64,000 bases of DNA, from contig KE159795.1 of NCBI GenBank assembly GCA_000403475.2, forward strand, positions 410,561-474,560. The letters run 5' to 3'. A program made the translations under genes and the position numbers. The DNA comes from Lachnospiraceae bacterium MD308. GTDB taxonomy: Bacteria; Bacillota; Clostridia; Lachnospirales; Lachnospiraceae. How positions within the stretch are numbered: the first letter of the stretch is position 1; each line of letters begins with the position of its first letter. The notes under the pieces are model-generated. The model did no database searches, was not told the DNA's origin, and saw nothing but the letters and a program-made list of their open reading frames with translations. Shown here piece by piece: positions 28,502-59,591 of this stretch.

Positions 28502-28576
28502 TTCCCTGACATTCCATGCCATTTTCACACATCCCAAACCATTTCCCAGCACCTCATATCATTCTAACCCCGCCGC

Positions 28577-29983: not shown

Positions 29984-29999
29984 ACACTTCCGCTCCTTC

Positions 30000-31889: not shown

Positions 31890-31972
31890 GAAAACACCCC
31901 TTTCCACACAAAAAGCACCAGCCATTCCTGACTGATGCCCATTGATACTGCTGTTCCCGAAGCACAGAAAAC

Positions 31973-32389: not shown

Positions 32390-32409
32390 AACGAAACCCT
32401 CCTTAAATG

Positions 32410-32525
32410 TGTTATGAACAAAGAACGGACAACCCAGGAGAGCAGGTTACTTACCCTGATACCATCAGGACGGCCGGGCTACCTACCGGCTCTGGTGCAT
32501 CCAAAAGATGCACGTTGCGTTTTTA
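32410..32525 (-). promoter_or_regulatory. Candidate yjdF (azaaromatic) riboswitch
   Basis: The leader before the DUF2992 gene has stacked hairpins: GTGCATC/GATGCAC (32495-32513), GCCGG/CCGGC (32473-32490) and CCTGAT/ATCAGG (32455-32469), then a short pairing just before the AAGGAGGG site. Position, length of about 115 bases and the attached DUF2992 gene fit the yjdF riboswitch class, which responds to azaaromatic compounds by translation control. I could not compare it with the covariance model. Confidence 0.6.
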
Positions 32526-32585
32526 TCTTTGCTTTTTCTATTTCCAGCAGGATCTACTCCCGCTAAAAACCAAATCTGTATCTGC

Positions 32586-33035
32586 CTATAACTTCTGTAT
32601 CTCTTTCAACGCCTTTTGGATGTCCTTATAAACTAACGGCCGCATACTGTCCTCATAAAAAGATACATCCGCCCTGCGCAGTGCTGAAAGAATATCCTCT
32701 TTCAGTTCGGGCTTATCCTTCGCAATCACAGGCAACAGCTTTATACACTGTCTTGCCGTAATCGGCTTAACATCTGTTATATGTTCCAAGTATCCATCAA
32801 TGATCTCATCTATCTTATTAGCCCTGTCCCACTTTGCATTATAGGCAAGCAGTGTAAGACCCCTGGTACGGATATAAGAATTATCACTTTCAAGCATATC
32901 ACTCAATCTTTCCATATAAGGGTAGACATGATCCGTTTCCTCACTCTCTTTCTGCAATTCCTGTAATGCCTTGTACGCCGTCTTATTATCTTTATCAAAT
33001 AGCAATTCAAATGCTTCTGCTGTATTCGTTGACAT
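32586..33035 (-). CDS. Small HEAT-repeat-like protein
   Basis: 149 residues from the ATG at 33035 (alternative 33083). All-helical and soluble, with repeated helix pairs: TAYKALQELQKESEETDHVY, MLESDNSYIRTRGLTLLAYN, PITARQCIKLLPVIAKDKPE. The pattern of DNSYIRTRGLTLL followed by a second helix is HEAT/SufBD-like. It probably serves protein contacts. It is A+T-richer than the phage genes, lies 12 bases after the GNAT gene, and both interrupt the tail gene order, so this is cargo. Confidence 0.75.
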   Translation of the reverse strand: MSTNTAEAFELLFDKDNKTAYKALQELQKESEETDHVYPYMERLSDMLESDNSYIRTRGLTLLAYNAKWDRANKIDEIIDGYLEHITDVKPITARQCIKLLPVIAKDKPELKEDILSALRRADVSFYEDSMRPLVYKDIQKALKEIQKL

Positions 33036-33095
33036 AACCACACCCTTGCCTTTCGCTACTGTGTTTGTTTTATTCATACCCAAACGGGAATTTAT

Positions 33096-33578
33096 CTATT
33101 TTTCCATGATCAATTCTTTGCACTTCCATTCTTCACCCAGAATACAATATTTTTCTGTTGCATCAAGAATTGTATCGCTAAAACCAACTGCTCTATAACA
33201 ATAATAAGCCGGAAGATTATTCTCAAAAACGCCCAATGATACTTTTTTTGCCCCATATATTTCAAATACAAATTTTAGACCTAATCGGAGCATAGCTTTT
33301 CCATAGCCTTTTCCTCTCTTGTGCGGATCAACAATAACAAATCCAAAGCGCAATTCATCCAATGATTCATTCGGGTTCCTTAGTGTAAAAAAACCAATAG
33401 TTCCCGTTTCGTCAAATACAGTAAACGGCATTAGAGATTCAACAAAACAAAATTCATTTTGCGTTATAGGATATTTACCAAGTATGCCTGCTGTCCATTG
33501 ATAAAATGCTTTTTCATCTTGACACCACGATAATATCGTGTCTGCATCCGAAGCTTTATATGGTCTTATTCTAATCAT
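33096..33578 (-). CDS. GNAT-family N-acetyltransferase (RimJ/RimL type)
   Basis: 160 residues. N-terminal IRIRPYKASDADTILSWC, the acetyl-CoA pyrophosphate loop VDPHKRGKGYGKAMLRLGL and the C-terminal NLPAYYCYRAVGF place it in GNAT. The acceptor is unknown. The gene is A+T-rich compared with the surrounding tail genes. A TATAAT-like -10 on the minus strand (33615-33620) lies about 40 bases before the ATG, with no good -35, so independent transcription is possible. It forms a small cargo group with the HEAT and yjdF genes. Confidence 0.85.
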   Translation of the reverse strand: MIRIRPYKASDADTILSWCQDEKAFYQWTAGILGKYPITQNEFCFVESLMPFTVFDETGTIGFFTLRNPNESLDELRFGFVIVDPHKRGKGYGKAMLRLGLKFVFEIYGAKKVSLGVFENNLPAYYCYRAVGFSDTILDATEKYCILGEEWKCKELIMEK

Positions 33579-33654
33579 ACACTTTCCCTCACCAAATTCT
33601 AATCCATGCTTCCCATTATACAGGATATCCCATCAAAAATCACTCTCTATTTCC

Positions 33655-34017
33655 TTAAAATTCCCTCAACGTAAAACTCACCTTCCACAGCCCCTTAAAA
33701 GACGTATCCTTTACCAGCACCGCCTTATACCCCTCAACAAACATTTCCGCCTCCTTCATCTCCAACATCTCCGTATCAAAATACGCCACCGCTATCTTCT
33801 CCCTCTGCTTAAACCCCGTCAGCACTTTCAACCACTTCGGGGAAACCGAAAAACTCACCGCAATAGACACCACCCCCAGCCTCACCACGTCCCTCTGGGT
33901 AGTCCCCGCCTCCGTCTCCCCGCCGGAATCCGCCTCCACGTCATCCATCTGCACCTCATAAGAATCCGGCAGAGGGAGCGGAACACCATCAAACACCAGA
34001 TATTGCACAAACGCCAT
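33655..34017 (-). CDS. Phage tail protein, unassigned
   Basis: 120 residues, beta-rich, directly after the tape measure gene with two bases between. It reads MAFVQYLVFDGVPLPLPDSY, then TTQRDVVRLGVVSIAVSF and GYKAVLVKDTSFKGLWKVSF. Small proteins of this sort with the DSYEV and LKGLWEVSF-like ends are common in siphovirus tail modules of Clostridia between tape measure and baseplate genes. A Dit-like or tail-tip accessory role is inferred from position only. Confidence 0.7.
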   Translation of the reverse strand: MAFVQYLVFDGVPLPLPDSYEVQMDDVEADSGGETEAGTTQRDVVRLGVVSIAVSFSVSPKWLKVLTGFKQREKIAVAYFDTEMLEMKEAEMFVEGYKAVLVKDTSFKGLWKVSFTLREF

Positions 34018-34019
34018 CC

Positions 34020-36950: not shown

Positions 36951-36975
36951 GAACCCTCACCCGCCTTTCTTCCAC

Positions 36976-36998
36976 GAAAAAAGAGCCGTTTCCGGCTC
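36976..36998 (-). terminator. Terminator of the HNH cargo gene
   Basis: Stem GAGCCG/CGGCTC with a TTTC loop (36983-36998), followed on the minus strand by six Ts. It lies between the HNH stop and the tape measure start and would also stop read-through from upstream tail genes. Confidence 0.7.
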
Positions 36999-37071
36999 CC
37001 GTAAAAATGCATGAAAAAAGCGCCTATCATTTCTGACAAACGCCCTATGTATACACTAATTTAGCTACCAT

Positions 37072-37824
37072 TTAGTATTCAAAATTTAACATTACCTTCG
37101 CAACATTTTCATATGCCTCCCAAATATCATTACACAAATCATTACATTTATTTTGATCAGACTTTCTATCAATAATGTATGAACCATTTCCATACTTTGC
37201 CGGCCCACCTTTTAATGCAATCATCCATCTAAATTGATTTATCTTTTCAATTAGAATATCTGTTACTGCTTTTAATTCATAATGCTGAACAGCGTTCATT
37301 GGTTTATTTAAGAAGTCTAACAAATTAAATAGCGGATCCAAATAAATTCTTTGAAAATCGCCATGAAAATCATGTTCCTTGAGCATATACATTGTATTGG
37401 GTTCTTCCATTGTATTTACAATTTGTTCCACTATTCTACAATCATTTTTAGATAATCTATCTTTTCCCATTGGGGATTTCCCCATTTGAATTGCTTGATT
37501 CGCTTCTCTCTCCGCAAGTTCTTTCCATAAATATAATATTTCTTTTGTGAAATACTCCTCATCCCTATCTATCATAGCTGCACAATTCCTACAGAGCCAT
37601 ATGCCATTTGAAATATCAGATCGCTCTTCTGGCGTCATATTTTCATCATACCTTTTTCCACCTGGTGAAGCGGCACATATATGTGCTGCTTCACCTATAT
37701 TAATCGTACCTCCTTGCCCATCTTGGGCCCCAATTGTTGTTTTACGACACTGTGGATTAGAGCACAAATACCCCACCCTTTTAGCCAATTCTTCTTTTGT
37801 CTTTGCCGAAAAATCATCTCTCAT
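37072..37824 (-). CDS. HNH-endonuclease-domain protein (cargo gene inside the tail module)
   Basis: 250 residues. The first 100 hold an HNH zinc-finger nuclease layout: Cys21 and Cys26 in LCSNPQCRKTT, His48 in IGEAAHICAASPGG, Asn73 in NGIWLCRNC (Cys78, Cys81) and Asp86. The GEAAHI...NGIWLC signature is shared by HNH effectors often found in defence or mobile contexts. The C-terminal 150 residues are helical with no family I recognise. Base composition is markedly A+T-richer than its neighbours. It has its own promoter (37897-37925) and terminator, separating the tail chaperone from the tape measure gene. A defence or lysogenic-conversion role is inferred. Confidence 0.8.
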   Translation of the reverse strand: MRDDFSAKTKEELAKRVGYLCSNPQCRKTTIGAQDGQGGTINIGEAAHICAASPGGKRYDENMTPEERSDISNGIWLCRNCAAMIDRDEEYFTKEILYLWKELAEREANQAIQMGKSPMGKDRLSKNDCRIVEQIVNTMEEPNTMYMLKEHDFHGDFQRIYLDPLFNLLDFLNKPMNAVQHYELKAVTDILIEKINQFRWMIALKGGPAKYGNGSYIIDRKSDQNKCNDLCNDIWEAYENVAKVMLNFEY

Positions 37825-37896
37825 ACTTTCATGCTCCTTTATTATGCCATTTTATAACTATCCATTATCATCAAATCACCGTTCCATATATCATAA

Positions 37897-37925
37897 AATA
37901 TAGCATAAAACCAGCATTTCTTCAA
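37897..37925 (-). promoter_or_regulatory. Promoter of the HNH cargo gene
   Basis: On the minus strand TTGAAG (37920-37925), 17-base spacer, TATATT (37897-37902), in an A+T-rich gap right after the tail chaperone gene. The SD AAAGGAG precedes the HNH ATG. Confidence 0.65.
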
Positions 37926-37932
37926 TCAGATT

Positions 37933-38097
37933 TCAGAACCAATCCATATCCTCCTGCGTACCCAGCTCACAGTACCGATATCCGTCATTCACCTGCTCCG
38001 TATACATATCGTTCACCAGCCCGATAGACAAAAGCTCCGTATCCGCCATAGACAGCCCCAACTGCACGCACCTAAGCAGAAACAGCGGCGTGGTCAT
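37933..38097 (-). CDS. Tail assembly chaperone, downstream frameshift part (gpGT-like)
   Basis: 54 codons from an ATG at 38097 that overlaps the stop of the upstream gene (ATGA): MTTPLFLLRCVQLGLSMADT, then YCELGTQEDMDWF. This is the usual extension of gpG in the gpGT fusion. The frame lies at -1 to the upstream gene and is open back through the A8 run at 38119-38126, giving KLRPTEREMTTPLF at the junction. So it is most likely made as a frameshift product, although coupled re-initiation at the ATG is possible. Confidence 0.8.
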   Translation of the reverse strand: MTTPLFLLRCVQLGLSMADTELLSIGLVNDMYTEQVNDGYRYCELGTQEDMDWF

Positions 38098-38471
38098 CTC
38101 CCGCTCTGTAGGGCGAAGTTTTTTTTAGCCTCCGCATCCGTCTGCACATTCAGCCCCCACAGCTTAATCAGCTCCGGCAGCACCTGGTAAATAGAAAACG
38201 TATTGAACCCGTCCAGCCATTCCTCCACATCGTCCGGGATCGCCGGGTCTGCGTGCTTCGCCATGGTATAAGCGATATTCTCAAACATCTCCAGAGAAAA
38301 TAAATCCAGATTGGAATGTTCCTCATCCCCCTCCCCAATGCTCTTTTCCAGAATCCGCAGGTCCTTATAAATATCCCTCTGGAACTTCAACCGGTAAATC
38401 CTCGGGATCGCCGCCGAAGCCTTGAACAGCACCTCTTTCCCGTCAATACCCACCTTCTTCACAATGCTCAT
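38094..38471 (-). CDS. Tail assembly chaperone (gpG-like)
   Basis: 125 residues: MSIVKKVGIDGKEVLFKASA, then YRLKFQRDIYKDLRILEKSI, SLEMFENIAYTMAKHADPAI and EWLDGFNTFSIYQVLPELIK. It belongs to the phage tail chaperone group that coats the tape measure protein before tail assembly. It ends AEAKKNFALQSGR just after the slippery run. The gene lies between the major tail protein and, in intact relatives, the tape measure gene. Confidence 0.88.
   Translation of the reverse strand: MSIVKKVGIDGKEVLFKASAAIPRIYRLKFQRDIYKDLRILEKSIGEGDEEHSNLDLFSLEMFENIAYTMAKHADPAIPDDVEEWLDGFNTFSIYQVLPELIKLWGLNVQTDAEAKKNFALQSGR
38119..38126 (-). promoter_or_regulatory. Programmed -1 ribosomal frameshift site
   Basis: Eight As on the minus strand (GCT AAA AAA AAC in the zero frame), nine codons before the gpG stop. 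The -1 frame continues into the gpGT extension without a stop. Position, run and joined product match the conserved frameshift of tailed-phage tail chaperones. Confidence 0.75.
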
Positions 38472-38486
38472 ACCCTTTCAGCCTCC

Positions 38487-39089
38487 TTAACCCTGACCTT
38501 CCAAATCATCTCTACCGCCGCCCGTCTCCGCCTTCGGAACCGGCAGATACACGCTCTTATACCACCCCTCATACGTCTCCGCAGAAGTCTTATTCCCCGT
38601 CTTCGCCTTCACATACCCGCTTGCCAGCGGCCTCGCCTTCACCGTCAGCGTCTCCGTCTGCACCTCCCGGCTTTCCTCATTGGTCTTCCCCTCAATCTTC
38701 GGCCTGCTGGCAGAACAGTTGTACAGCACATGCCGGATCTTCCGGACATCCCCGTCAAACTCAAACAGCAGGGCAAAAGCCCCGGTCTCCGAATTGGCAT
38801 TCTCCACCAGCACCTCATTCCCGTCCGCTTCCTCCTTCAGCACGTCCGTCCGGAAACTCTCCGGGATCAATGCCAGCTCCAGGTCCCCGTCATAGCCCAT
38901 ATTGTTGGCAATGATATAATACTCAATGCCGTCCGCATAAAAAGACTCCGGCTCCCCGTTGGGGTCCAGCGCCAGCGAAACCGCGCCGGGCATCGCCACC
39001 GGCGTATCAAACGTCATCTCCCCGTTCTCCGCCGCCCTCTGCAGCGCATAATGGCAGTTGCAGATATTGAACTTCACCTTGTTATTCAT
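38487..39089 (-). CDS. Phage major tail protein
   Basis: 200 residues, beta-rich: MNNKVKFNICNCHYALQRAA, VAMPGAVSLALDPNGEPESF, YYIIANNMGYDGDLELALIP and FALLFEFDGDVRKIRHVLYN. These are features of the phi13-type major tail tube proteins of Firmicutes siphophages. It is located before the tail chaperone in the usual order. The C-terminal part (VKAKTGNKTSAETYEGWYKS) is the variable surface region of these proteins. Confidence 0.88.
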   Translation of the reverse strand: MNNKVKFNICNCHYALQRAAENGEMTFDTPVAMPGAVSLALDPNGEPESFYADGIEYYIIANNMGYDGDLELALIPESFRTDVLKEEADGNEVLVENANSETGAFALLFEFDGDVRKIRHVLYNCSASRPKIEGKTNEESREVQTETLTVKARPLASGYVKAKTGNKTSAETYEGWYKSVYLPVPKAETGGGRDDLEGQG

Positions 39090-39092
39090 CGT

Positions 39093-39410
39093 CTATACCT
39101 CCGTCTCATACAGAACCTCATACAGCTTCTCCGACTCAATCCACACCTCGCTCTTCCCGTAGAAAATCCCGTGCCTCAACAACACCGCCTCCACAGCCTC
39201 TTCCAGCTCCGGGTCCTTCAAGTCCGTATAAAGCTCAATGTCCAGCTCATTCTTCTTGAAATACGCAATCCCGTCCGCCGAAAAATTATCGGCCCTGGGA
39301 TACAGAAACACCGCAAACGGCGGCTCCGGCGCCTCCCCTTCCACGAAATGGTCATAGGCAAAAGGAAGCCCCATTTCCTCCATCATTTCCAGCACATCCC
39401 CATGGCTCAT
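39093..39410 (-). CDS. Phage tail completion/terminator-like protein
   Basis: 105 residues. Reads LPFAYDHFVEGEAPEPPFAV and FFxYPRAD-like sequence, then AYFKKNELDIELYTDLKDPE and LEEAVEAVLLRHGIFYGKSE. Such proteins between the gp10 adaptor and the major tail protein usually close the head-tail joint or the tail end. The start overlaps the end of the gp10 gene by four bases (ATGA-like coupling). Family assignment is by position and general likeness. Confidence 0.75.
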   Translation of the reverse strand: MSHGDVLEMMEEMGLPFAYDHFVEGEAPEPPFAVFLYPRADNFSADGIAYFKKNELDIELYTDLKDPELEEAVEAVLLRHGIFYGKSEVWIESEKLYEVLYETEV

Positions 39411-39793
39411 TTGGACAGCCCCCTCTTTATCCCCTCTTCCAGCTCCCGGATGCCCTTTTCCTCCGCCGGGGCAATATGCGGAATGGCTCTCACCCTTCCG
39501 CCGCCCCGCTTCGCATGGCCCTTCTCCAAAAGATGGGTAAGCTGATACCGGTTCCTGCTGTGTACCACCACCTCCAGCGTATTGGAAGTCTCCCTCTGCC
39601 GCTTCACCGCCCAGCTCTTCTTATACTTCCCGGTCCTCACCGGAGCGCCCGCCTGCGTCTCCTTCTTCACCGTGTTCCCGGCCTTCTTCACACAGTCCTT
39701 CATCACGTCCGTTGCAAGCTCCGCATACTCCAAAAGCCCGTCCATAACGGCATCCGCCATCTGGTCCACAGACACCCTCTGATTATCCGCCAT
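39407..39793 (-). CDS. HK97 gp10-family head-tail joining protein
   Basis: 128 residues: MDGLLEYAELATDVMKDCVK, the AGAPVRTGKYKKSW motif and VVVHSRNRYQLTHLLEKGHA with HIAPAEEKGIRELEEGI. The PVRTGxxKxSW and YxLTHLLExGHAxRxGG motifs are characteristic of gp10-like adaptor proteins. It is part of the neck, between the head-closure protein and the tail terminator, in normal order. Confidence 0.9.
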   Translation of the reverse strand: MADNQRVSVDQMADAVMDGLLEYAELATDVMKDCVKKAGNTVKKETQAGAPVRTGKYKKSWAVKRQRETSNTLEVVVHSRNRYQLTHLLEKGHAKRGGGRVRAIPHIAPAEEKGIRELEEGIKRGLSK

Positions 39794-39797
39794 CCCG

Positions 39798-40181
39798 TCA
39801 CCTCTTCGCCAAAGAAGCCCGCAGCTTCAACGTCCTATTCTGATACCGCACATTATCAATAAAAGAGATATTGTAGACCTGCCCCCGAAACAAAATCCGG
39901 TAATGCTCCGTGTCCATATCAGCCGCTTCCGAACAGTACCGGATAATGAAATAGACATCCTTCTGTGCGTTAATCTGCGCCGCCTCCCAGTATTCCTTCC
40001 CGGAAAGACTGTTCACAAAAGCAGAACAGGAAAAATGATCCTCCCAGACCAGCACATGGTTCCCCGCCTTATCGTTCCCCAGGGAGCTCTTCTGGATCGT
40101 GATCCGCTCCTTCCACTCCCCCAAAGGATACCTCTGCCGGGAACTCCCGCCTGCCCCGCTGTCCCTCCATTCCTCCGCCAT
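39798..40181 (-). CDS. Phage head closure protein (SPP1 gp16-like)
   Basis: 127 residues: WKERITIQKSSLGNDKAGNH, VWEDHFSCSAFVNSLSGKEY, AQINAQKDVYFIIRYCSEAA and YRILFRGQVYNISFIDNVRY. The pattern is that of the SPP1 gp16/HK97 gp7 head-tail adaptor family, which seals the connector after packaging. It shares its first base with the last base of the upstream connector gene. Confidence 0.88.
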   Translation of the reverse strand: MAEEWRDSGAGGSSRQRYPLGEWKERITIQKSSLGNDKAGNHVLVWEDHFSCSAFVNSLSGKEYWEAAQINAQKDVYFIIRYCSEAADMDTEHYRILFRGQVYNISFIDNVRYQNRTLKLRASLAKR

Positions 40182-40459
40182 CAGAACACTTCCTTCCTGA
40201 TACCGAACAGCAGGGAGCGCAAAGTCTGCACCAGTTCCTCATGGTCCGCCTGCTCCCTGTGCTCATACAGATAAGCAATGACATACAAGACGGCAATCCG
40301 CGCCATGGGAAGATGTCCTTCCAGCTCTCCCGCTTCCATCCGCGCCATATCCGCGCACATGCTCTCCCCGGTCTCCAGCAGCCCGGAGATAAACCCGTCC
40401 TCGTCCGCGCTGTCCACCCGGAGATACTGCTTCGCCTCTTCCAGCGTCACAACCGCCAT
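40181..40459 (-). CDS. Head-tail connector protein (HK97 gp6-like)
   Basis: 92 residues: VVTLEEAKQYLRVDSADEDG, FISGLLETGESMCADMAR and HLPMARIAVLYVIAYLYEHR. The LxxAKxYLRVDxxxxD start is the hallmark of gp6-like connectors, which form a ring below the portal. It lies directly after the capsid gene in the usual order. Confidence 0.9.
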   Translation of the reverse strand: MAVVTLEEAKQYLRVDSADEDGFISGLLETGESMCADMARMEAGELEGHLPMARIAVLYVIAYLYEHREQADHEELVQTLRSLLFGIRKEVF

Positions 40460-40540
40460 CCTGCATCCCTCCCGCCTTTCATACTTTATTTCATGCCGGA
40501 GATTTCACACCCCCGGCATCACTCACAACACGTCAGAACC

Positions 40541-41752
40541 TTATGCCCCGGAGCCGTTCCCCTTGATCGCCATGGTCTTCACAGCCTCCGACAAGATCAG
40601 CTTCCCGTCCACCCTCTGGCTTGCCAGGAACCCCACCTGTCCGTTTGCCGCAAACAGCTCATTCAGCCTCTTAAAAGACCTCCCCTGCCGGTCCGCGATC
40701 CAGTAATAAGAGAAATCCCCAAAGGCCATCACCTTCGCACCCGCCGCAACCTCCGGCACATAGGCGGAAGTATGGTACGGGCGGTTCAGGATCATGTCCG
40801 GCTGCCCCGCCTGCACGGACGGCTGCCAGATATAATTGCCGTTATTGTCTTTCAGCTTCCGCAGGGCCTTCACCGTGGTATCATTCAGCACCCAGACCGC
40901 CTTCTTCCGGTACGGGGACTTCACCGCATAGAACAGGTCCATCACATCGTCAAACGTGATACCGGCAGCCGCCGTGGTCACTCCGTCAGAAGCCCCGCCC
41001 GCGGCATTAAAAATACCCGTAGGCTTGCCCTTCCCGTCCCCGGTAAAGAACGCCTCTTCCTCCTTCGCCCCGATCCTGCGCCCGAACTCCTTAGAGATAT
41101 ATGCCTCCAGGTCAAACACACTGTCATTCAGAAGCTCATCCGACACTTTCAGCATCGTCGCCACCTTGTACGCCCCGATGGAAACCTGCCCGAAAGAATC
41201 ATCCGACTCCGGGTAAGCCCCTTCCTCGTCAATCCAGGAAGCCGTCCCCTTCGTGGCAACCACCGGGATCTTCCGGTCCCCGCTGGAAGTCCGGATCACC
41301 GTGGCGATACTCCGGAAAAAGTTCTCTTCCTCCAGAGCCTCCACCAGCGTATGCTCAAACTCGTCCGGCACCAGATATCCGCCCTCGGAATCCGTCCCCA
41401 CCTGCAGGGCATTCTCCACGTCATAAAAATTCTTCCTCCGCATGGCGTTCCAGAATGTCTTTTTATACTTATCCGTCGCCCTGCCTTTCTTCTCTTCGCC
41501 GTCCGGATTGTTGTTCGGCTTATTCGTGATCGGCTCGGAGACAGGCTTATTCAGCTCCGCGTCAATCGCCGCCTGCCGTTCCAGCCGCTCAATCTCCTTC
41601 CCCAGATCCACAACCTCCTGCTCCATCTTCTCATAGGCAGCCGTATCTTCCGCCGACAGCAGGCCGTCCTCGCCCCGCTTGCTGTCCAGGAAAGCCTTTG
41701 CCGCCTCCCATGCCTTTGCACGCTTCTCCCTCAACTCCAAAATCGTCTTCAT
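40541..41752 (-). CDS. Major capsid protein, HK97 family
   Basis: 403 residues from the ATG at 41752 (GGAGG seven bases upstream); longer starts run into a repeat block. Residues 1-75 are a coiled-coil scaffold-like delta domain (ELREKRAKAWEAAKAFLDSK, AAYEKMEQEVVDLGKEIERL), which the neighbouring protease would remove. The HK97 fold follows: VGTDSEGGYLVPDEFEHTLV, SGDRKIPVVATKGTASWIDE, SDDSFGQVSIGAYKVATMLK and YYWIADRQGRSFKRLNELFA. Its sequence looks intact. Confidence 0.93.
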   Translation of the reverse strand: MKTILELREKRAKAWEAAKAFLDSKRGEDGLLSAEDTAAYEKMEQEVVDLGKEIERLERQAAIDAELNKPVSEPITNKPNNNPDGEEKKGRATDKYKKTFWNAMRRKNFYDVENALQVGTDSEGGYLVPDEFEHTLVEALEEENFFRSIATVIRTSSGDRKIPVVATKGTASWIDEEGAYPESDDSFGQVSIGAYKVATMLKVSDELLNDSVFDLEAYISKEFGRRIGAKEEEAFFTGDGKGKPTGIFNAAGGASDGVTTAAAGITFDDVMDLFYAVKSPYRKKAVWVLNDTTVKALRKLKDNNGNYIWQPSVQAGQPDMILNRPYHTSAYVPEVAAGAKVMAFGDFSYYWIADRQGRSFKRLNELFAANGQVGFLASQRVDGKLILSEAVKTMAIKGNGSGA

Positions 41753-41814
41753 CTCCATACCTCCGTCAATCTGTTTTTTGAATTTACAAAAACCTCTTTT
41801 ACAGGCCCCGTACA

Positions 41815-41909
41815 GCCGCAGCACCTCACAGTCGCTTTCCAGGCTCCACATAACCGCAGCACCTCTAAACCGCTTCCCAGGTTCCACATAGCCGCAGTAC
41901 CTCACAGCC
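41815..41909 (-). repeat. 2.5 tandem copies of a 38-bp sequence before the capsid gene
   Basis: Copies at 41815-41852 and 41853-41890 differ at several positions; a third partial copy covers 41891-41909. Each contains a CCGCAGCACCTC block and a TTCCACATA/CTCCACATA block. The period is not a multiple of three, so it is not a coding repeat. It fills the gap between the protease and capsid genes. Copy number and spacing do not fit a CRISPR array. Confidence 0.75.
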
Positions 41910-41963
41910 CTCCCCTGCTCTGCCGGTTCACAAACCGCCTCAGCCCATGACCACTCCGAAATC

Positions 41964-42671
41964 TCAATGCCGCAGAAGTCCCAGCCGCTTCTCCAACTGC
42001 TCCACCGGAACCCTCTCTTCTGTCTCCTTCGGCACCAGCTTGGACAGCAGGGAATTAGTCACCGCCATGCGCGAAAACATCACGCCCTCTGGCTCCGCGC
42101 CTCTCACTGCATCTTCCGTACCTTCCCCTTCATGCAGAACCCCGTCCGCAAACCCAAGCTCCACCGCCTTCTTCGCATTGAACCAGCTCTCCGCATCCAT
42201 CAGATGGGAAATCCTCGCCCGGCTCATTCCTGTCTTGATCTCATAGGCGTTCATGATGCTCTCCTTCACCTCGTCCAGCATCTCCCCGGCCCTCTGCATC
42301 TCCTTACTGTCACCGATAGCAATCGTCATGGGATTGTGGATCATCATCATACCCACCGGGGACATCAGGACCTCCGTCCCAGCCATGGCAATCACAGACG
42401 CCGCCGAAGCCGCCAGAGCGTCCACCTTCACCGTCACATCCCCTTTGTACTCCATCAGCATGTTGTAAATCTGCGCCGCCGCAAACACGTCCCCGCCCGG
42501 AGAATTGATCCAGACCGTGATATTCCCCGTCCCTGCGTTTAACTCCTTCCGGAACAGCGCCGGCGTCACCTCGTCCCCGTACCAGGTCTCATCCGAAATC
42601 TCCCCATTCAATACCAAGGTTCTCTCCCCGTCCGTCTCATTCCGTATCCAGTTCCAAAACTTCCGCTTCAT
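41964..42671 (-). CDS. Prohead maturation protease (ClpP-like)
   Basis: 235 residues. ClpP/crotonase-type serine protease: VWINSPGGDVFAAAQIYNML, DALAASAASVIAMAG with the nucleophile Ser, MMMIHNPMTIAIG with the catalytic His, and DAESWFNAKKAVELGFADGV. It would cut the capsid delta domain during head maturation. It is located between portal and capsid genes as expected. The C-terminal 45 residues are a variable tail. No damage was seen. Confidence 0.92.
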   Translation of the reverse strand: MKRKFWNWIRNETDGERTLVLNGEISDETWYGDEVTPALFRKELNAGTGNITVWINSPGGDVFAAAQIYNMLMEYKGDVTVKVDALAASAASVIAMAGTEVLMSPVGMMMIHNPMTIAIGDSKEMQRAGEMLDEVKESIMNAYEIKTGMSRARISHLMDAESWFNAKKAVELGFADGVLHEGEGTEDAVRGAEPEGVMFSRMAVTNSLLSKLVPKETEERVPVEQLEKRLGLLRH

Positions 42672-42811
42672 CCCTGCACCTCACTTTCCGCTTCTTCCAA
42701 TACTTCCCACCGATTCTCATAAAACGGCGCACAAAAAAGCCGACAGATACATTCACCTGCCATCTCCCAAAACACCTTTATTTAGCTATTATGCTTTCAT
42801 CTTCCCATGCC

Positions 42812-44116
42812 TCACTGCCCCTGTCCGGAGCCTCCCTGCCGAAACTGCCTCCCGTCCGGCGGCTCCTGCTCCTGCAGGTTCTTCCCCGCAAACAGCCCCG
42901 CATCTTCCAGCCTGCACAGATTCCCGTTCACCAGATATAGGTCCCCGCCTTCCTCCGCCGGGATCGGGTTCATATCCTCCATCTCCCTGATATCATTCGC
43001 AGACAGCCACCCATTCTGCCGCCCCACAGAATACCCGGTCATACGGCTCTGGTAATCCCCCCGCAGAAGCCCGTCCACGTTCAGCTTCACGAAATACTCC
43101 CGCTTCTCCTGGGGCAGCAATAAGGCTTTCTGTAAAGACTGCTCCCACCGGATCACCCATGGGTCCAGCGTATACTTCACAAACTCCAAAGACTGCTGCT
43201 CAATATTAGAAAAACTGCTCTTATCCAGATCCCCCACCATATGCGGTGGAATCCGGTACAGCCTGGCGATCTCGTCCACCTGGAACTTCCTGGTCTCCAG
43301 AAACTGCGCTTCCTCCGGCGGAATCCCAATCTGCTGGTACTTCATGCCCTCTTCCAGAACGGCAACCTTCCCCGCATTCTTAGAGCCCCCGTAAACAGCG
43401 TGCCAGCTCTCCCGCACCTTCGCCGGGTCCTTCAACACCCCCGGATGCTCCAATACACCGCCAGGCGTGGCCCCGTTCTCAAAGAACCCCGCCCCGTATT
43501 CCTCACAAGCCAGCGTCATCCCCACCGCATTCTTCGCCATGGCGATAGGAGAATACCCCACCAGCCCGTCAAACCCAAGCCCAGGGATATGCAGCACATC
43601 CTCCCGCGCAAGATACACCCTGCCGTACTCCCCAAAGTTCGGGTTCTCGTCACCGTACCGGTTATAAACATAATAAAGCTCCCCCTTACCGTCCCGGTCA
43701 ACCTCCACCTTGTCCGGCAGCAGCGGGTACAGCCCCAGCACCCGTCCCCCGCCGTCCCGTATGATCTGCGCATAGGCATTCCCCCAGATCAAAAGATGGC
43801 TCATAAGCGTCTCCCGGAACACAAAAGAAGTCATCTCCGGGTTCGGCTCGTCATGCAGGAGATAATACAAAGGATGGTCATACACCCGTTCCTTCCCCCT
43901 CCCCGCATACCGGTACAAATGCACCGGCAGAGACGCCACAGCCTCCGCCAGAATCCGCACACAGGAATAGACCGCCGTGGTCTGCATGGCCGTCCGCTCA
44001 TTCACGACCTTCCCGCTGCTGCTCCGCCCAAAGAAAAAGGAATAAGCCGTACTCCCGTAACTGTCCCTCGGCTTATCCCTCGCCCCTCTGATACCCAAAA
44101 CAGACGCCAGCTTCAT
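42812..44116 (-). CDS. Phage portal protein, HK97 family
   Basis: 434 residues from the ATG at 44116 (GGAGG upstream). AYSFFFGRSSSGKVVNERTA, TAVYSCVRILAEAVASLPVH, HPLYYLLHDEPNPEMTSFVF and WGNAYAQIIRDGGGRVLGLY belong to the HK97/lambda-B-like portal family. GLDERSNFS-like KSSFSNIEQQSLEFVKYTL and GVLRPNEVR-like NGWLSANDIREMEDMNPI are also present. It is a dodecameric ring for DNA passage. Its neighbour upstream would normally be the terminase, but a HEPN cargo gene lies between. Confidence 0.93.
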   Translation of the reverse strand: MKLASVLGIRGARDKPRDSYGSTAYSFFFGRSSSGKVVNERTAMQTTAVYSCVRILAEAVASLPVHLYRYAGRGKERVYDHPLYYLLHDEPNPEMTSFVFRETLMSHLLIWGNAYAQIIRDGGGRVLGLYPLLPDKVEVDRDGKGELYYVYNRYGDENPNFGEYGRVYLAREDVLHIPGLGFDGLVGYSPIAMAKNAVGMTLACEEYGAGFFENGATPGGVLEHPGVLKDPAKVRESWHAVYGGSKNAGKVAVLEEGMKYQQIGIPPEEAQFLETRKFQVDEIARLYRIPPHMVGDLDKSSFSNIEQQSLEFVKYTLDPWVIRWEQSLQKALLLPQEKREYFVKLNVDGLLRGDYQSRMTGYSVGRQNGWLSANDIREMEDMNPIPAEEGGDLYLVNGNLCRLEDAGLFAGKNLQEQEPPDGRQFRQGGSGQGQ

Positions 44117-44137
44117 ACACACCTCCTAAAAATACGC

Positions 44138-44164
44138 AAAAGAAAAGCACCTCCGAAGAGATGC
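44138..44164 (-). terminator. Terminator of the HEPN cargo gene
   Basis: Stem GCATCTC/GAGGTGC with a TTCG loop (44147-44164), followed on the minus strand by TTTTCTTTT. It lies between the cargo gene stop and the portal start. Confidence 0.7.
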
Positions 44165-44199
44165 CTTAAAAATATATTCCTACAAAAAAACAAATTGGT

Positions 44200-45303
44200 T
44201 CATTTCTCTAACATGCAAATGTTTTTAATAAATGAAACCAACATAACAGATATCTCCAAATAATACTCACTCTTTATATATGCGACATCTCCACATTTAA
44301 GATTGTACTTATTACCTTGTGACTGGCTAAAATAGCCTTGATCTATTATTCCTCGCTTATGAATATGCAGATTTCTCCTAGCAATAATCTCGCATAAATC
44401 TTTATAAACATCCCTATCTTCAATAACAAAATAATCTCTTCTATACTTATAAAGCAGCTTCAACAATCCCGAAACATAATTATTTTTTAAGATTTTTTCA
44501 ATTACCTCCGATTGAAACGATGAAAAAGATCCCGCTTTTATTATCTCCTTTAACTCATACTTATCTGATAATATTTCCTCATTTTTATTACAGAAATCAA
44601 AAAAATGGCAAGTAATTATCAATTCAGCAATATCAAATACAGCAGCATCAAAAGCAGTCATAAGTAAAATAAACGATTGCCTAAAAATATTAAGGGGGTT
44701 TTTAAAGTCCATAACATTACATAATGTCATATACTCTGATAATTCATGCTCATGCCTTCTTTCATCATCTATATGTGCATTAAAACAATCGATTCTACAA
44801 TACTCTAATAATTTTTCATAATCCTTAACAGAATAATTGCGATAGTGTGATTCATTTCCTGATTCATTGTCAATGTCTCTTTTTAAAGAATCTGCTGACA
44901 TAGAACATAACGCAGCATAATGATCCTCAAATCTTTCATCTTCAAATCTGCTTTCCAAATATATTGCAAGTTTCTGTTCTTTCTTAACGATGCTACAATT
45001 CCTTAATTCATCTGTAATTTCTCTTTTGCAATTTTCATCTAAATACCTTGCACATTTTTCTCTTTCCTCAACTATTCTTTGTTTTATTTTTTCTATTATT
45101 GCCTGATTATTATCTTCAATCTCTGGTTCGACAAAATTACACTCATATCGGTCTAGCAAATTCTTAATTTCCGCATTACCTGAAAATTCTTCAATAATAA
45201 TCCTTTTATATTGCTCAAAAGATATTATAGAATGCATAGTATACTGAAATAAATTAGTATTTTCATCAGAAAATCTTTTTTCAATTTCTTCAATTTTATA
45301 CAT
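44200..45303 (-). CDS. Uncharacterised HEPN-type protein (cargo gene between terminase and portal)
   Basis: 367 residues, A+T-rich, soluble. The first 230 residues are highly charged and helical with no recognised domain. The C-terminal third is mostly helical and carries VYKDLCEIIARRNLHIHKRG, where Arg310-Asn311 and His315 form the R-x4-H motif of HEPN ribonuclease domains; helices FRQSFILLMTAFDAAVFDIA and YYLEISVMLVSFIKNICMLE frame it. This layout resembles the RiboL-PSP/ApeA-like HEPN proteins linked to abortive infection. SD AAAGGA precedes the ATG; there is a private promoter and terminator. A role in defence against other phages is inferred, not shown. Confidence 0.72.
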   Translation of the reverse strand: MYKIEEIEKRFSDENTNLFQYTMHSIISFEQYKRIIIEEFSGNAEIKNLLDRYECNFVEPEIEDNNQAIIEKIKQRIVEEREKCARYLDENCKREITDELRNCSIVKKEQKLAIYLESRFEDERFEDHYAALCSMSADSLKRDIDNESGNESHYRNYSVKDYEKLLEYCRIDCFNAHIDDERRHEHELSEYMTLCNVMDFKNPLNIFRQSFILLMTAFDAAVFDIAELIITCHFFDFCNKNEEILSDKYELKEIIKAGSFSSFQSEVIEKILKNNYVSGLLKLLYKYRRDYFVIEDRDVYKDLCEIIARRNLHIHKRGIIDQGYFSQSQGNKYNLKCGDVAYIKSEYYLEISVMLVSFIKNICMLEK

Positions 45304-45374
45304 AGATATCCTTTCAGTTTTTTAACCCAATATTGTCATGAGTCAATACAAACATTTTTAGATTTATGTGATTC

Positions 45375-45383
45375 AGTATACCA
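45375..45383 (-). promoter_or_regulatory. Extended -10 promoter of the HEPN cargo gene
   Basis: TGGTATACT on the minus strand is an extended -10 (TGn plus TATACT); the -35 is weak. A loose dyad (TTGACTCATGACAA) about 25 bases downstream could bind a repressor. Confidence 0.45.
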
Positions 45384-45397
45384 GAAACCCGCCAACA

Positions 45398-47800
45398 TTA
45401 AAAGGACAAAATCCCCCTCTCATCATACACGCTCCCCGTACTCCCGCCATGCCTTACCGCCCGGTCAAGCGCCATAACCGCCGCCACCGCGCCGTCAATC
45501 TTCTCCGTTGACTTCTCCTTGTCCGGCTTGATATTCCCCGCCGGGTCCGTCCGCACAAAAATATTGTCCATCATCCACCGCAGCACCGGATGCCCGCCGT
45601 GGGCAACATTCCTCTCCAGCACCAGCTCCATCAGCCTCTTTGTAGGCGGCGACATATCCTTGAACCCCTGCCCGAACGGGACCACCGTAAACCCAAGCCC
45701 CTCCAGGTTCTGGACCATCTGCACCGCTCCCCACCGGTCAAAGGCAATCTCCTTTATGTGGAACCTCTTCCCCAAATCCTCTATAAAACTCTCAATAAAC
45801 CCATAATGGATCACATCCCCCTCCGTAGTCTCCAGGAACCCCTGCTTCTCCCACACATCATACGGCACATGGTCACGCCGCACCCTCCGCGCCATGTTCT
45901 CCTCCGGTATCCAGAAAAACGGCAGGAACACATACCTCTCCGTATCGTCCCTGGGCTGAAACACCAGCACAAAAGCCGTGATATCAATAGAGCTTGACAA
46001 ATCCAGCCCTCCGTAACACTCCCGCCCCAGAAGCTCCCCCTCGTCCACCGGGAAAGCACAGGCATCCCACTTCTCCATCTGCATCCAGCGTGTGGACTGC
46101 TTCACCCACTGGTTCAGCCGGAGCTGCCGGAAAATATTTTCCTCCGCCGGATTGTCCCTGGCGCTCAAACAAGCATTCCGCACCTTCCCGATATCAATCG
46201 TATGCCCCAAAGACGGGTTCGCCCGGTACCACACTTCCTCCGAAGTCCAGTCCGCATCATCCTCCGCCCCGTAAATCACCGGATAAAACGTGGGGTCCGC
46301 CTTTCTACCGCACAGAATATCCTCCGCCTTCTGATGCTGCTCAAAACACACCGAATGCCGGTCTGTCCCCGCCGTAGTGATCAGGAAGAACAAAGGCTGT
46401 GTCCTGGCATCCCCGGAGCCCTTCGTCATAACGTCAAACAACTCCCACACAGCCTCTGTCCGCACCAGAAGCTCCCGGCTCTCCGGCAGCGCCATGGCCA
46501 CCGCATAAGCCACCGTCGCCGTGACCGCGTTCCCGGCCTGCTTATAAAGCTGTGTTTCCGAATTGACAGCCGCCGCCCGCTCATACAGCTCATCCGGGAA
46601 CCCCTGCAGGCGGAAACACTCACGGGGAGTCAGCCGCCGAATCTTCCCGCACTTCGTCACCGTCCCCATCATGCACCCCGTATCCAGCGTCTGCGAACAC
46701 CCCTTTCCAACCCGGCCCCGCCTGGAACCGCTTTTCGGATATGACAGCACAATCCCGTCTCCCGGACGCGCCATGTCATACCCCTGCTTCGTGGCATTGC
46801 GGACAGGCAGCGCCGTCTCCGCACCCCCGGACACCTCTTCCGGCAGGTACACCCCATGCTGGTCCTGCGCCGTCAGCGTGAACATCGGCTCCCCGGTTTC
46901 TTTCATCCGCCTCCCGTTCTGCCGCTTCTCCACCCGATCCGGCGTCAGCACCGCCCTGGCTTCCTGCACCGCAGAATCAGTCTCCAATACCCCGGAATTG
47001 CCATAATTCGTCAGCCCGCCATTATACTGTGCAATCAGGCACCGAGCAACCTCCGTAACCTTCGGATGGTTCAGCGTCTGGTCCACAAATATCCGGCCGC
47101 CTGGCTCTGCATCTCCCACGCAGTACAGCCCGGTCTTCGCGCCCATGCCCCCGCCGTTCGCCCCGATACTCACCGAAACCCCGGACGGGTCATACACCCG
47201 GTATCCCTGCATCCCGCCTATAACCTCTTTAAGAGCTCCGCCGTCTTCTCCGGAGACAGGTAATACTTCCCGTCCGCCTCTGCTTCTAAGAACTGCGATA
47301 AGGAATACCCTCTCCCGGTTCTGCGGGACTCCGAAGTCTTTAGAATTAAGCACCTGCCACCGCACGTCATACCCTGCCTCGTCCATTTCAGAGAGAACGG
47401 CGGCAAAATCGAATCCTGCATTGACTGATAACAGGTTCTTAACGTTCTCAACAAGTAGGTATGTGGGCTTATCACCTTCCTCTTTGCCTTTGATGAGGTC
47501 AATAATGCTGTAATAGATTCCACTTCGCTTCCCTCTAAGCCCCCTCTGCTTTCCTGCGATGGAAATATCTTGACAAGGGAATCCGTAGCACCAGATATCG
47601 GCGTATGGGATATCCCCCGGTCTAAGTTCTGTAACGTCATATGCCTTCCACTCCCCTTCCGTGTCATACATGGCCTCATAGGAAGCCCGCGCAAACTTAT
47701 CATACTCACAATACCCAACGCATTTATGTCCGGCCCATTCCAGCCCCAGCCGGAACCCGCCAATCCCCGAACAGATATCCAGAAATGTAAGCCGCCCCAT
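45398..47800 (-). CDS. In-frame fusion of C5-cytosine DNA methyltransferase and terminase large subunit C-terminal part
   Basis: 800 residues from the ATG at 47800 (GGAGG nine bases upstream). Residues 1-437 are a Dcm-type methyltransferase: LDICSGIGGFRLGLEWAG, FPCQDISIAG (Cys76), LLVENVKNLL (ENV), DFGVPQNRERVFLI and RRLTPRECFRLQGFPDEL with KQAGNAVTA. Residues about 450-800 are the end of a TerL protein: LFDVMTKGSGDARTQPLFFL, NQWVKQSTRWMQMEKWDACA, GGLDLSSSIDITAFVL (nuclease Asp), IAFDRWGAVQMVQNLEGLG and EKIDGAVAAVMALDRAV. The terminase Walker A and B ATPase half (about 200 residues) is absent. A deletion that joined two neighbouring genes is the simplest cause; packaging should fail. Confidence 0.88.
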   Translation of the reverse strand: MGRLTFLDICSGIGGFRLGLEWAGHKCVGYCEYDKFARASYEAMYDTEGEWKAYDVTELRPGDIPYADIWCYGFPCQDISIAGKQRGLRGKRSGIYYSIIDLIKGKEEGDKPTYLLVENVKNLLSVNAGFDFAAVLSEMDEAGYDVRWQVLNSKDFGVPQNRERVFLIAVLRSRGGREVLPVSGEDGGALKEVIGGMQGYRVYDPSGVSVSIGANGGGMGAKTGLYCVGDAEPGGRIFVDQTLNHPKVTEVARCLIAQYNGGLTNYGNSGVLETDSAVQEARAVLTPDRVEKRQNGRRMKETGEPMFTLTAQDQHGVYLPEEVSGGAETALPVRNATKQGYDMARPGDGIVLSYPKSGSRRGRVGKGCSQTLDTGCMMGTVTKCGKIRRLTPRECFRLQGFPDELYERAAAVNSETQLYKQAGNAVTATVAYAVAMALPESRELLVRTEAVWELFDVMTKGSGDARTQPLFFLITTAGTDRHSVCFEQHQKAEDILCGRKADPTFYPVIYGAEDDADWTSEEVWYRANPSLGHTIDIGKVRNACLSARDNPAEENIFRQLRLNQWVKQSTRWMQMEKWDACAFPVDEGELLGRECYGGLDLSSSIDITAFVLVFQPRDDTERYVFLPFFWIPEENMARRVRRDHVPYDVWEKQGFLETTEGDVIHYGFIESFIEDLGKRFHIKEIAFDRWGAVQMVQNLEGLGFTVVPFGQGFKDMSPPTKRLMELVLERNVAHGGHPVLRWMMDNIFVRTDPAGNIKPDKEKSTEKIDGAVAAVMALDRAVRHGGSTGSVYDERGILSF

Positions 47801-47801
47801 A

Positions 47802-48929
47802 TCAGCTTTCCTCCCCTCTGCCGTCTGCTCCCAAAGCACACACCTTCTCAAATTTCAGGTCATAAAAATAAGCGGCCTCCGAGAACCGCCGTTCAAAATC
47901 ATCCAGATATTTAAAACAGGCGCTCCGCCTGCCGTTCATCTCCCCAAACTCCCTCAGACTCTTTTTACAAAAAAGCCCCGGCTGGTTCACCCATCTCGCA
48001 ATGGTGACATACATCCCCCAGAACGGGCTCTCCCTGTACCGCCCAAACCGCATCACATAAGGCAGGCACCCATACTTCATCAGGAGCTCCACCCGTTCCA
48101 GCAGCCCGAAAACATCATCCCTCCAGAAAGCCCCGTCCCACACGTCCTCCCGGTCAAACCCGCAGAAACAGTAAAACCGCAGACGTACATCCGTATACTT
48201 CCTGGCAAGAATGAGCTTCTTTTCAATCAGCCCTGCGTCCCTCACGTCATCAAATGCAAATGTATATGTCCCGTCATACCTGGCGGAAAACAGCTCCCGG
48301 CACTTCTCGTCATCCAAGAGCCGCTCGTCCAGCCCCTGCCGGAACTGAAAAGGCTTCCCCGTCCGCTTTAATGCGTCCAGCATCTCCTTCCAGCGGGGAT
48401 GCCCCAGGAAATTGTCATCCAGAAGGCATATCTTCTTCCGCTCCGGGTTCAGGAACTCCTCCAGGGGGCTGTGCATACATACCCGGTCATAATTCCTGTT
48501 CACGCAGAACGCGCATTTCCGGAAACACCCCCTTGAGAGGAAACCGATGGAATAATCCAGGTAAAACTGAAAATCACTTCTCCTTGCCCCGGCATCCAGC
48601 TTCTCCTGCACCCACCTGTCATACAGATGGTAGTCCGTCATACAGTGTTCCGCTTCCTCCGGCAGAGACGGCGCCCTGTCGTAAAAGAACCCCGTCCCTC
48701 CGTAAGAGACGTTCCCCATCCCAAGGACACCCTCCGGCACTTCCGTATCCGTGAACACCTTCGACAGATACACCCGGTCAAACTTATCCAGCCCCTCATA
48801 GTACATTTTCAGCGCCACGTCATCCCCGCGCCCCTTGTGCTATCCCGACAGCTTCATGCAGGCAAGGTTCGGGAACCTGTACTTCTTCCTGCCAATCAAA
48901 TCCGCATCAACCACCGCAATCCGTTCCAT
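47802..48929 (-). pseudogene. Phage radical SAM protein gene with in-frame amber codon
   Basis: The frame from ATG 48929 (GGAGG six bases upstream) reads MERIAVVDADLIGRKKYRF, then LACMKLSG, TAG at 48840-48842, and continues HKGRGDDVALKMYYEGLDKF without other stops to 47802. Both sides belong to one protein. The CxxxCxxC cluster motif is in SRGCFRKCAFCVN, after a B12-binding-like start. The tail part could be translated from a start near 48818 but would lack the first 37 residues. The gene overlaps the PAPS-reductase-like gene upstream and abuts the methyltransferase fusion. Radical SAM proteins of this phage group have no known substrate. Confidence 0.72.
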
Positions 48930-49611
48930 CCTGCACCTCCCCTTCCGGCTCTTCCCAGATCTTTTCTCCGGCCGGAAAACACAGACCGTCCATGCTCCCC
49001 AGTCTCTCCCTCAATTCCCGGAAGAACTCCTTCCCCCGGATACGCTTTCCTTCCCGTATCCGTTCTTCCTCAAACCGGAACCGAACCTCCAGCTCCTGCA
49101 CAGAAAAATCCTTCCGGAAATTCCGCCAGGTTTTGCCTTCCCCTTCCAGAAGCCGGCTCCACAGCTCCGGAAACTCCCTCACCCTCTGGGGCTCATCCGC
49201 CGCTATGCCGATATACTTCACAATCTCATAATTCTTCCTAAACCCAGACAGATACTTGTTGATCACCACCGTCTTCAACACCGAAGTACACCAGCGGTTC
49301 TTAGGCCCCGCCCAGCTCATGCCTGGCCTGCCCGCATAGGGGGAATCCAGGTCCTTCCGCTCCGGCGTATAACGGAGCAGGTAATACTCAAATCCTTTCT
49401 CCTCTTTCAAATGCACCACCGGAACCGGCAGCGCCTTCTCCAGCTTCTCCACATGCTCATACATCCGGAGAAATTCCAGCCCCGTGTCACAGAACATCAC
49501 AAAATCCAAAGGCCATCCTTCCTCCACCAGCCGCAGGACCATGGCCGTGGAATCCTTCCCGCCAGACAGCGAAGCCGCATACAGCTTTTCCTTTCCGCCG
49601 TCCTTATGCAC
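48907..49611 (-). CDS. PAPS-reductase-like protein, possibly internally deleted
   Basis: 234 residues. The PP-loop is SLSGGKDSTAM, followed by FVMFCDTGLEFLRMYEHVEK and NRWCTSVLKTVVINKY, as in phage and Dnd-type members of the PAPS reductase family. The protein then reads IGIAADEPQRVRE and goes directly to FPELWSRLLEGEGKTWRNFR. In relatives I recall a further stretch of roughly 60 residues with a CWCCP-like motif between these. An in-frame deletion is inferred. Such enzymes activate substrates by adenylation or handle sulphur, and a nucleic-acid modification role with the adjoining radical SAM protein is possible. It overlaps the small HTH gene by eight bases. Confidence 0.72.
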   Translation of the reverse strand: MHKDGGKEKLYAASLSGGKDSTAMVLRLVEEGWPLDFVMFCDTGLEFLRMYEHVEKLEKALPVPVVHLKEEKGFEYYLLRYTPERKDLDSPYAGRPGMSWAGPKNRWCTSVLKTVVINKYLSGFRKNYEIVKYIGIAADEPQRVREFPELWSRLLEGEGKTWRNFRKDFSVQELEVRFRFEEERIREGKRIRGKEFFRELRERLGSMDGLCFPAGEKIWEEPEGEVQDGTDCGG

Positions 49612-49804
49612 CCAGCATGGCGGTATCTTCCGCCATCTCTCTCTGCTGGTTCAGCTTCACCGCTTCCCCATAGCCTTCCATCCCGTTCGCCCTGCAGTAA
49701 TTCCGCACAATATCACGGGACAGCCCAACGGCAGAGGCAGCAGCCTTATAGCCCTTCCCCTGCATCCGAAGCTCTTTAATCCGCTCCGCCTGTTCCTTCG
49801 TCAT
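49604..49804 (-). CDS. Small HTH protein of the phage packaging region
   Basis: 66 residues: MTKEQAERIKELRMQGKGYK, then AAASAVGLSRDIVRNYCRANG is a sigma-70 region 4/resolvase-like helix-turn-helix. In relatives that I remember this start is followed by a C-terminal zinc-knuckle segment (CxxC...CxxxC) which is missing here, so the gene may be shortened. It overlaps the PAPS-reductase-like gene. A regulatory role for the late phage genes is possible. It is the first gene of the remnant. Confidence 0.6.
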   Translation of the reverse strand: MTKEQAERIKELRMQGKGYKAAASAVGLSRDIVRNYCRANGMEGYGEAVKLNQQREMAEDTAMLGA

Positions 49805-49864
49805 ACCTTCACTCCAAATAAAAAGAGCCGAAAACCACCTTTTTCCGATAGTTTTTCAGCCCCA

Positions 49865-49931
49865 AAATGCAGGATTTATAAAGACTCCCGAAACCGCTTC
49901 CTCCCCGGAAATCCTTATAAATCCCGCATTT
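49865..49931. repeat. 17-bp inverted repeat with a 33-base gap
   Basis: AAATGCAGGATTTATAA (49865-49881) pairs with TTATAAATCCCGCATTT (49915-49931) with one mismatch, which is a G-U pair in RNA. It lies between the end of the prophage gene block and the SymE-like gene and may be a long hairpin or a border signal. The rest of 49932-50163 holds no gene I can support and should be the leader of the plus-strand gene. Confidence 0.65.
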
Positions 49932-50185
49932 ATGTATAACAGAACAACGCCCTGCCTATCCCCCCTGCTAATTTCTGCGAAAATCCACGTTTGAGGGGGC
50001 GGCGGTGTCCAGGGGGACAGCTTCCGGAGATTTGCACCGCCCCTCCCCTCCGGCTATATACAGAACCCACAGCTCACGGGAAAAATCTTTGTGGAGATCA
50101 CCGGCCGGATTTCACGGGAGATCCGCACGGTTCCACAGTAAAATAATAGCCAGCACCACACCAAATCTAAAGGAGGCACACGTCC

Positions 50186-50413
50186 ATGAAATCAAAGCTG
50201 ATCAAAGTAATCACTTCCTCACGCCTTACCTATCCCAAAAAACCTTTTGATGACACCAAGTACATCCGGACACCCAAAACCCAGTTAGAGGGAAACTGGC
50301 TGGAATCCCTCGGCTTCCACATCGGGGACCGCCTGCAGGTGGACTATGAAGAAGGCTCCATACATATCCACCCAGCACCGCCGGAGCCGGACTATCCCGC
50401 AGAACCCGCATGA
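50186..50413 (+). CDS. SymE-like toxin-family protein
   Basis: 75 residues on the plus strand, opposite to its neighbours. LIKVITSSRLTYPKKPFDDT leads to IRTPKTQLEGNWLESLGFHI and GDRLQVDYEEGSIHIHPAPP. The LxGxWLExxGFxxGxxxxVxxxxGxIxI pattern is that of SymE, the AbrB-derived endoribonuclease toxin of type I toxin-antitoxin systems. SD AAAGGAGG lies nine bases before the ATG. The 5' leader is long, and an antisense RNA, as in SymR, would be expected there but cannot be read. Many Firmicutes members lie in mobile DNA. Confidence 0.8.
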   Translation: MKSKLIKVITSSRLTYPKKPFDDTKYIRTPKTQLEGNWLESLGFHIGDRLQVDYEEGSIHIHPAPPEPDYPAEPA

Positions 50414-50438
50414 TAAAAACAGCATATACCGCAAAAAA

Positions 50439-56842: not shown

Positions 56843-56961
56843 CGAATCTCTCCTTTCAAAGAAGGAGAGTCAGACTTGCAAAATTATCATACCACAAATC
56901 TGACTCTCCGTATAGCTTTATCATAGGATTCCGGCAATCTGCCGCTCTTTTTCAGGATTTT

Positions 56962-57195: not shown

Positions 57196-57299
57196 AGGCA
57201 GTTGTCCTCCATAACTGTTGTTGTCGCGGCAGTCTCCAAATGGATGTGCAGGCATATCCGCTTGGCTCATTGCTCACGCACATGAAAAAGCCAGACAGG

Positions 57300-57500: not shown

Positions 57501-57514
57501 TTTGCCGGATTTTT

Positions 57515-59589: not shown

Positions 59590-59591
59590 GT

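Follow-up and report, generated by a model that had tools for sequence, protein, structure and literature searches.

In prophages of Lachnospiraceae, e.g., Schaedlerella arabinosiphila DSM 106076 (L115, L118), a DNA methyltransferase (MTase) gene is followed by the genes for the small (TerS) and large (TerL) subunits of the terminase. The same families, in the same order, recur in the locus described here. In its near relatives, these are separate genes, with MTase frames of 545 to 551 codons (longer in those with an intein), a TerS of the PF05119 family, and a 531-codon TerL that combines PF03354 and PF20441; the TerS and TerL domains were tested by Pfam in the relative locus L037. In Streptococcus phages, e.g., Javan244 and Javan113, all three genes are found within 4 kb, and both halves of the fusion have matches there that are ~60% identical. 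A literature search found no paper on an MTase-terminase fusion.

The fused open reading frame and its domains

In the 64,000-nucleotide stretch of Lachnospiraceae bacterium MD308 that was analyzed here (the window), the MTase and the C-terminal part of TerL share a single open frame.

45398..47800, minus strand: fused ORF, C5-cytosine DNA methyltransferase with the C-terminal (nuclease) part of TerL (ORF list, Pfam, PHROG)
46487..47800, minus strand: methyltransferase part, aligned to relatives over the full conserved length (alignment A5)
45398..46446, minus strand: C-terminal part of TerL, the complete nuclease domain preceded by ~40 residues from the end of the ATPase domain (Pfam, alignment A4)

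In the ORF list, the frame spans 45398..47851 (minus strand) and has 817 residues counted from a TTG codon. The ATG at 47800 gives an 800-residue protein, with the coordinates of the initial annotation, and is more likely to be the start than the TTG at 47851 because it has a likely ribosome-binding site, GGAGGAAAGCTGATATG (minus strand), just upstream. A Pfam search assigns the product to the C5-cytosine DNA methyltransferases (PF00145, E value of 2.5e-65, 221.5 bits with the cut-off at 22, best stretch at residues 22 to 190) and finds TerL_nuclease (PF20441, E value of 1.1e-46) at residues 519 to 801, covering positions 4 to 285 of the 286-position profile; no match to TerL_ATPase (PF03354) was reported for the fused ORF. 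Likewise, PHROG assigns one half to a DNA methyltransferase family and the other to a terminase large subunit family. The joined gene, a complete MTase running into the TerL nuclease domain as the initial annotation described it, is thus confirmed in the given sequence. Calling the terminase "headless" agrees with the missing PF03354 match and is slightly too strong, since ~40 residues from the end of the ATPase domain, including FLITTAGT, remain ahead of the nuclease domain. An AlphaFold model of the fusion (alignment A3, 30 relatives) has a mean pLDDT of 47.9 and a pTM of 0.34, too low for judging how the halves pack.

In alignment A5 (the window and 22 relatives, numbered by the 800-residue protein), the invariant positions of the MTase half are D8, G12, G14, P75-C76-Q77, E118-N119-V120, Q160-R164, and G423-N424. 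These include the Pro-Cys-Gln, Glu-Asn-Val, and C-terminal Gly-Asn motifs of C5-cytosine methyltransferases, with Pro-Cys-Gln as the catalytic site. The MTase tail that is lost in the fusion is not conserved; many relatives' MTase frames stop 4 to 17 codons past the equivalent of fusion residue 455. The MTase half is probably still folded and, if expressed, may methylate cytosine.

The catalytic cysteine is also the site of an intein in some relatives. An insert of ~345 residues (GFP / C...HN / CQDIS) is found there in 19 ORFs, from loci L039, L040, L066, L070, L079, L112-L120, L122, L123, L125, L133, and L135 (in L040, it is seen only at its end), and the insert of L066 has Pfam matches to intein splicing and LAGLIDADG domains. 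In the window, this intein site (47573-47575) is empty.

The nuclease half retains the PF20441 match and six acidic residues, D600, D606, D643, D688, D752, and D769, that are invariant in alignment A4 (the window and 25 relatives). The intact 531-residue TerL of L037 has PF03354 at residues 49 to 223, and its tblastn match to the window begins only at residue 184. No match to the L037 TerS (PF05119) was found in the window by tblastn at E values of <=1e-3, and elsewhere in the genome there is a 25% match. The TerL tail is predicted to be unable to package DNA, because both the ATPase core and TerS are missing. The terminase of some relatives has its own insertion: in L081 (6924-9500) and L155 (Robinsoniella peoriensis), the TerL frame is 859 codons long and has ~330 additional residues, placed ahead of or inside the ATPase half. 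The L081 frame has a Pfam match to LAGLIDADG, so that the insertion is probably a TerL intein.

Deletion junction

Base-by-base comparison with ten relatives shows that the window lacks 1205 to 1325 bp at one place.

46443..46446, minus strand: deletion junction, GGGA at both ends (ten relatives)
Missing length: 1205 bp relative to L187-189; 1260 bp to L006, L038, and L066; 1277 bp to L036 and L037; 1324 bp to L041; 1325 bp to L039, L040, and L190-192

Thirteen loci were aligned to the window by nucleotide sequence; one of them, L035, is identical to it, and eight (L006, L036-L041, and L066) break exactly at 46443/46446. Of the more diverged loci, L070 breaks at 46464/46446, and the MTase-side match of L079 stops at 46493, its TerL part being absent from the nucleotide matches listed; L042 matches the TerL part alone, and L050 has no listed match. 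Two longer relatives, L187-189 (Schaedlerella arabinosiphila) and L190-192, bring the number compared base by base to ten, of which L036 and L037 resemble each other; GGGA stands at both deletion ends in all of them. Measured on L037, the window has lost ~86 codons at the end of the MTase frame, the complete TerS gene, and ~182 TerL codons, among them those for VIFDEL, a Walker-B-like motif.

A random join would share a repeat of at least 4 bp with a chance of about 2%. Joins made at random between the two L037 genes are in frame in one third of the cases, and those sharing 4 bp or more (n = 4278) in 42%; a single in-frame case therefore needs no selection. The fusion very probably reflects a single deletion inside a decaying prophage, after which the two remaining pieces were joined in frame by chance. 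Slippage at the short repeat, or end joining there, would have produced this event, in which the end of the MTase gene, all of TerS, and the larger part of the TerL ATPase domain were removed. This reading is favored because of the exact breakpoint and short repeat relative to ten relatives and because of three further deletions in the same prophage (see below); the separate genes in the relatives speak for it as well. It corresponds to the first of two explanations in the initial annotation, a deletion scar that left an MTase with a tail, which thereby has strong support. The deletion is probably recent.

Distribution of the fusion

A search of the viral collection for the 39-base junction gave a single hit, IMGVR_UViG_2600255140_000002; the stretch L035 of this record does not differ from the window over 11,013 bp and therefore probably comes from the same strain. 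Both halves are present in 60 of the 186 related loci (the underlying searches retained the top 80 among 248 viral matches and the top 80 among 156 genome matches); three of the 60 are the window's own sequence or the above viral record. In the other 57 loci, some of them near-copies of one another, the halves are in separate open frames, and the MTase half is >40% identical in 53. The initial annotation had proposed looking for the same fusion in other genomes, and none of these 57 loci carries it; recurrence of the architecture in independent genomes, the mark of a functional fusion enzyme, is thus not seen among them. In the genome search, some match was found in 93 of 145 genomes, the own one among them, and, among the matches listed, only the own genome matched across both halves. 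The phage collection yielded 2935 matching records. In 12 of them, a single place accounts for at least 80% of the query; all 12 are Streptococcus phages with separately annotated MTase, TerS, and TerL (40 of the 2935 records were listed). A 1623-residue open frame in a genome of the same genus (G005) was considered as a natural MTase-TerL fusion and rejected, the L006 frames being separate (160 codons, cut at the locus start, 174 codons, and 531 codons).

That the sole second record, L035, may be the same assembly would be in line with the join having been made by the assembler at a locus that truly contains three genes. Such an error is nevertheless quite unlikely: the joined places share only 4 bp, which is too short to mislead an assembler, and no further copy of the missing stretch was found in the genome, the only other TerL being an intact one in a second prophage that is 74-75% identical and the match to the L037 TerS being just 25%. 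Besides, the genome assembly (4.46 Mb in 4 contigs) is 98.7% complete.

State of the prophage and neighboring genes

The deletion that we consider responsible for the fusion lies in a prophage with other losses.

28034..50436, minus strand: defective prophage remnant containing the fusion (homology to two fuller relatives)
49173..49178, minus strand: second deletion scar, in the PAPS-reductase-like gene 48907-49611, with 165 bp missing (compared with four relatives)
28384..28454, minus strand: two further deletion scars in the endolysin region, 865 or 978 bp and 117 bp (compared with two relatives)
42812..44122, minus strand: portal protein, full length compared with two relatives (PHROG, frame comparison)
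47802..48818, minus strand: radical-SAM-like phage gene upstream of the fusion (phrog_9298)

Homology to L187-189 and L190-192 extends from 50436 to 28040; beyond these ends, the relatives continue with phage genes. In L187-189, the latter encode, according to Pfam, DNA polymerase A, a VapE-like protein, an SNF2 helicase, an amidase/glucosaminidase endolysin, and a serine recombinase; their L190-192 counterparts were assigned by eye according to the lengths and starts of the frames. The relatives' PolA, SNF2, serine recombinase, and TerS have no tblastn match in the window (E values of <=1e-3), the VapE-like protein has only a 32-35% match, at 57.6-58.9 kb in the neighboring mobile element, and just residues 107 to 289 of a relative's 558-residue endolysin frame are matched, at 28040-28456. 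By this comparison, the packaging, lysis, replication, and integration genes are gone by deletion, and the prophage would be unable to complete a lytic cycle alone. The ends of the 165-bp deletion share 4 to 6 identical bases (GGGAGT in 2 of the 4 relatives) and those of the 117-bp deletion 5 to 6; in the 865/978-bp deletion, the repeat has just 3 to 4 bases, little above chance. Other length differences between the window and its relatives exist besides these four deletions, e.g., at 37.0-37.9 kb.

The frames that were compared between portal and tail are covered in full relative to L187-189, without frameshifts: portal (437 codons), protease (238), capsid (411), tape measure (978), a tail-region frame (485), and smaller ones. 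An in-frame gap of 66 bp sets the window apart from a 715-codon frame of L187-189; it is not seen relative to L190-192. Since the structural frames compared are full length, there is no decay by point mutation, and it is arguable that something keeps the prophage. As far as the account of incomplete prophages in PMC7744054 goes, they preferentially lose terminase and lysis genes, in line with the window prophage; their described enrichment in integrases and loss of portal genes does not fit it.

A tyrosine recombinase frame, 55643-56842, was considered as the prophage integrase and not counted to the prophage because it has a Tn916-type DNA-binding domain (Pfam) and, as judged by eye, host-like genes lie between. 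It belongs to a mobile element (55643-63520) with a Tn916-type integrase and, by eye, relaxase- and primase-like frames, separate from the prophage. The protein encoded at 50960-52036, which adjoins the prophage end, has PADLOC matches to candidate PDC-S02 and PD_DExK and is presumably YhcG/DUF1016-like.

The PAPS-reductase-like gene 48907-49611 is matched by PADLOC SspD (E value of 1.9e-19); together with the radical-SAM-like gene, it forms a stretch near the MTase (47802-49611) that possibly contributes further DNA-modification functions. Between terL and the portal gene lies a low-GC gene (44200-45303) for a 367-residue protein that has no Pfam, PHROG, or PADLOC match; its RNLHIH stretch resembles, by eye, HEPN ribonucleases. 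Relatives carry different genes of 287, 306, or 469 codons after terL, and this position is therefore perhaps a slot for defense genes; the 469- and 287-codon genes have weak PADLOC matches to PDC-M01A and mad1.

Selection on the fusion

Relative to the nearest relative, pairwise dN/dS is 0.134 in the MTase part and 0.085 in the nuclease part, values similar to those of the portal (0.130) and the protease (0.080). For the most part, they reflect constraint from before the deletion and suggest a young deletion, not upkeep of the fusion. At MTase codons that are invariant in 15 relatives, the window alone has 14 silent and 5 changing differences, and at residues invariant in these relatives it has 7 amino acid changes; the nuclease part, set against 71 relatives, has no such codon difference and one amino acid change, counts that are not comparable with those of the MTase because the numbers of relatives differ.

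The second explanation of the initial annotation, domestication that tethers a nuclease to methylation, is left without support here apart from the open frame and the intact residues. A selected host protein in which the MTase directs or holds back the terminase nuclease, akin to a restriction-modification system or an anti-phage device, is highly improbable: the open frame, the two full-length domains with their conserved residues (A4, A5), and the absence of signs of decay in the substitution analysis of either half are compatible with it, but the fusion is known from one strain only within the collections searched, a short repeat marks the breakpoint in a prophage with three other deletions, a one-in-three chance explains the open frame without selection, and the dN/dS values suggest that the fusion is too young for post-fusion selection to show. 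There is very little chance that the product works as a sequence-specific MTase bringing the TerL nuclease to its sites, i.e., as a modification-plus-cleavage protein. If it did, the chimera could act, e.g., against phages related to the strain's own prophage, and it would be a natural test of whether a terminase nuclease domain still works once it is released from its ATPase and attached to an enzyme that binds DNA. Taken as a deletion scar, the locus is a base-level example of how prophage decay yields chimeric open frames, which annotation pipelines may mistake for new multidomain enzymes.

Comparison with known systems

The fusion looks like an ordinary deletion scar rather than a new kind of enzyme. 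Among the Lachnospiraceae prophages, its nearest relatives have a TerL nuclease half that is 93-99% identical to that of the window; in contrast to the fusion, the three genes of the Lachnospiraceae cluster are separate and complete. In phages of the Javan244/Javan113 type, MTase, TerS, and TerL are also annotated as separate features. Among proteins of known structure, residues 177 to 495 of a terminase large subunit (PDB 6z6d), which we take to be of the HK97 type, match residues 456 to 783 of the 800-residue protein, whereas the first ~176 residues of 6z6d have no counterpart in the fusion. M.HhaI-like C5 methyltransferases (e.g., PDB 10mh) match residues 4 to 169; these enzymes are shorter than the phage MTase, which here carries a TerL tail.
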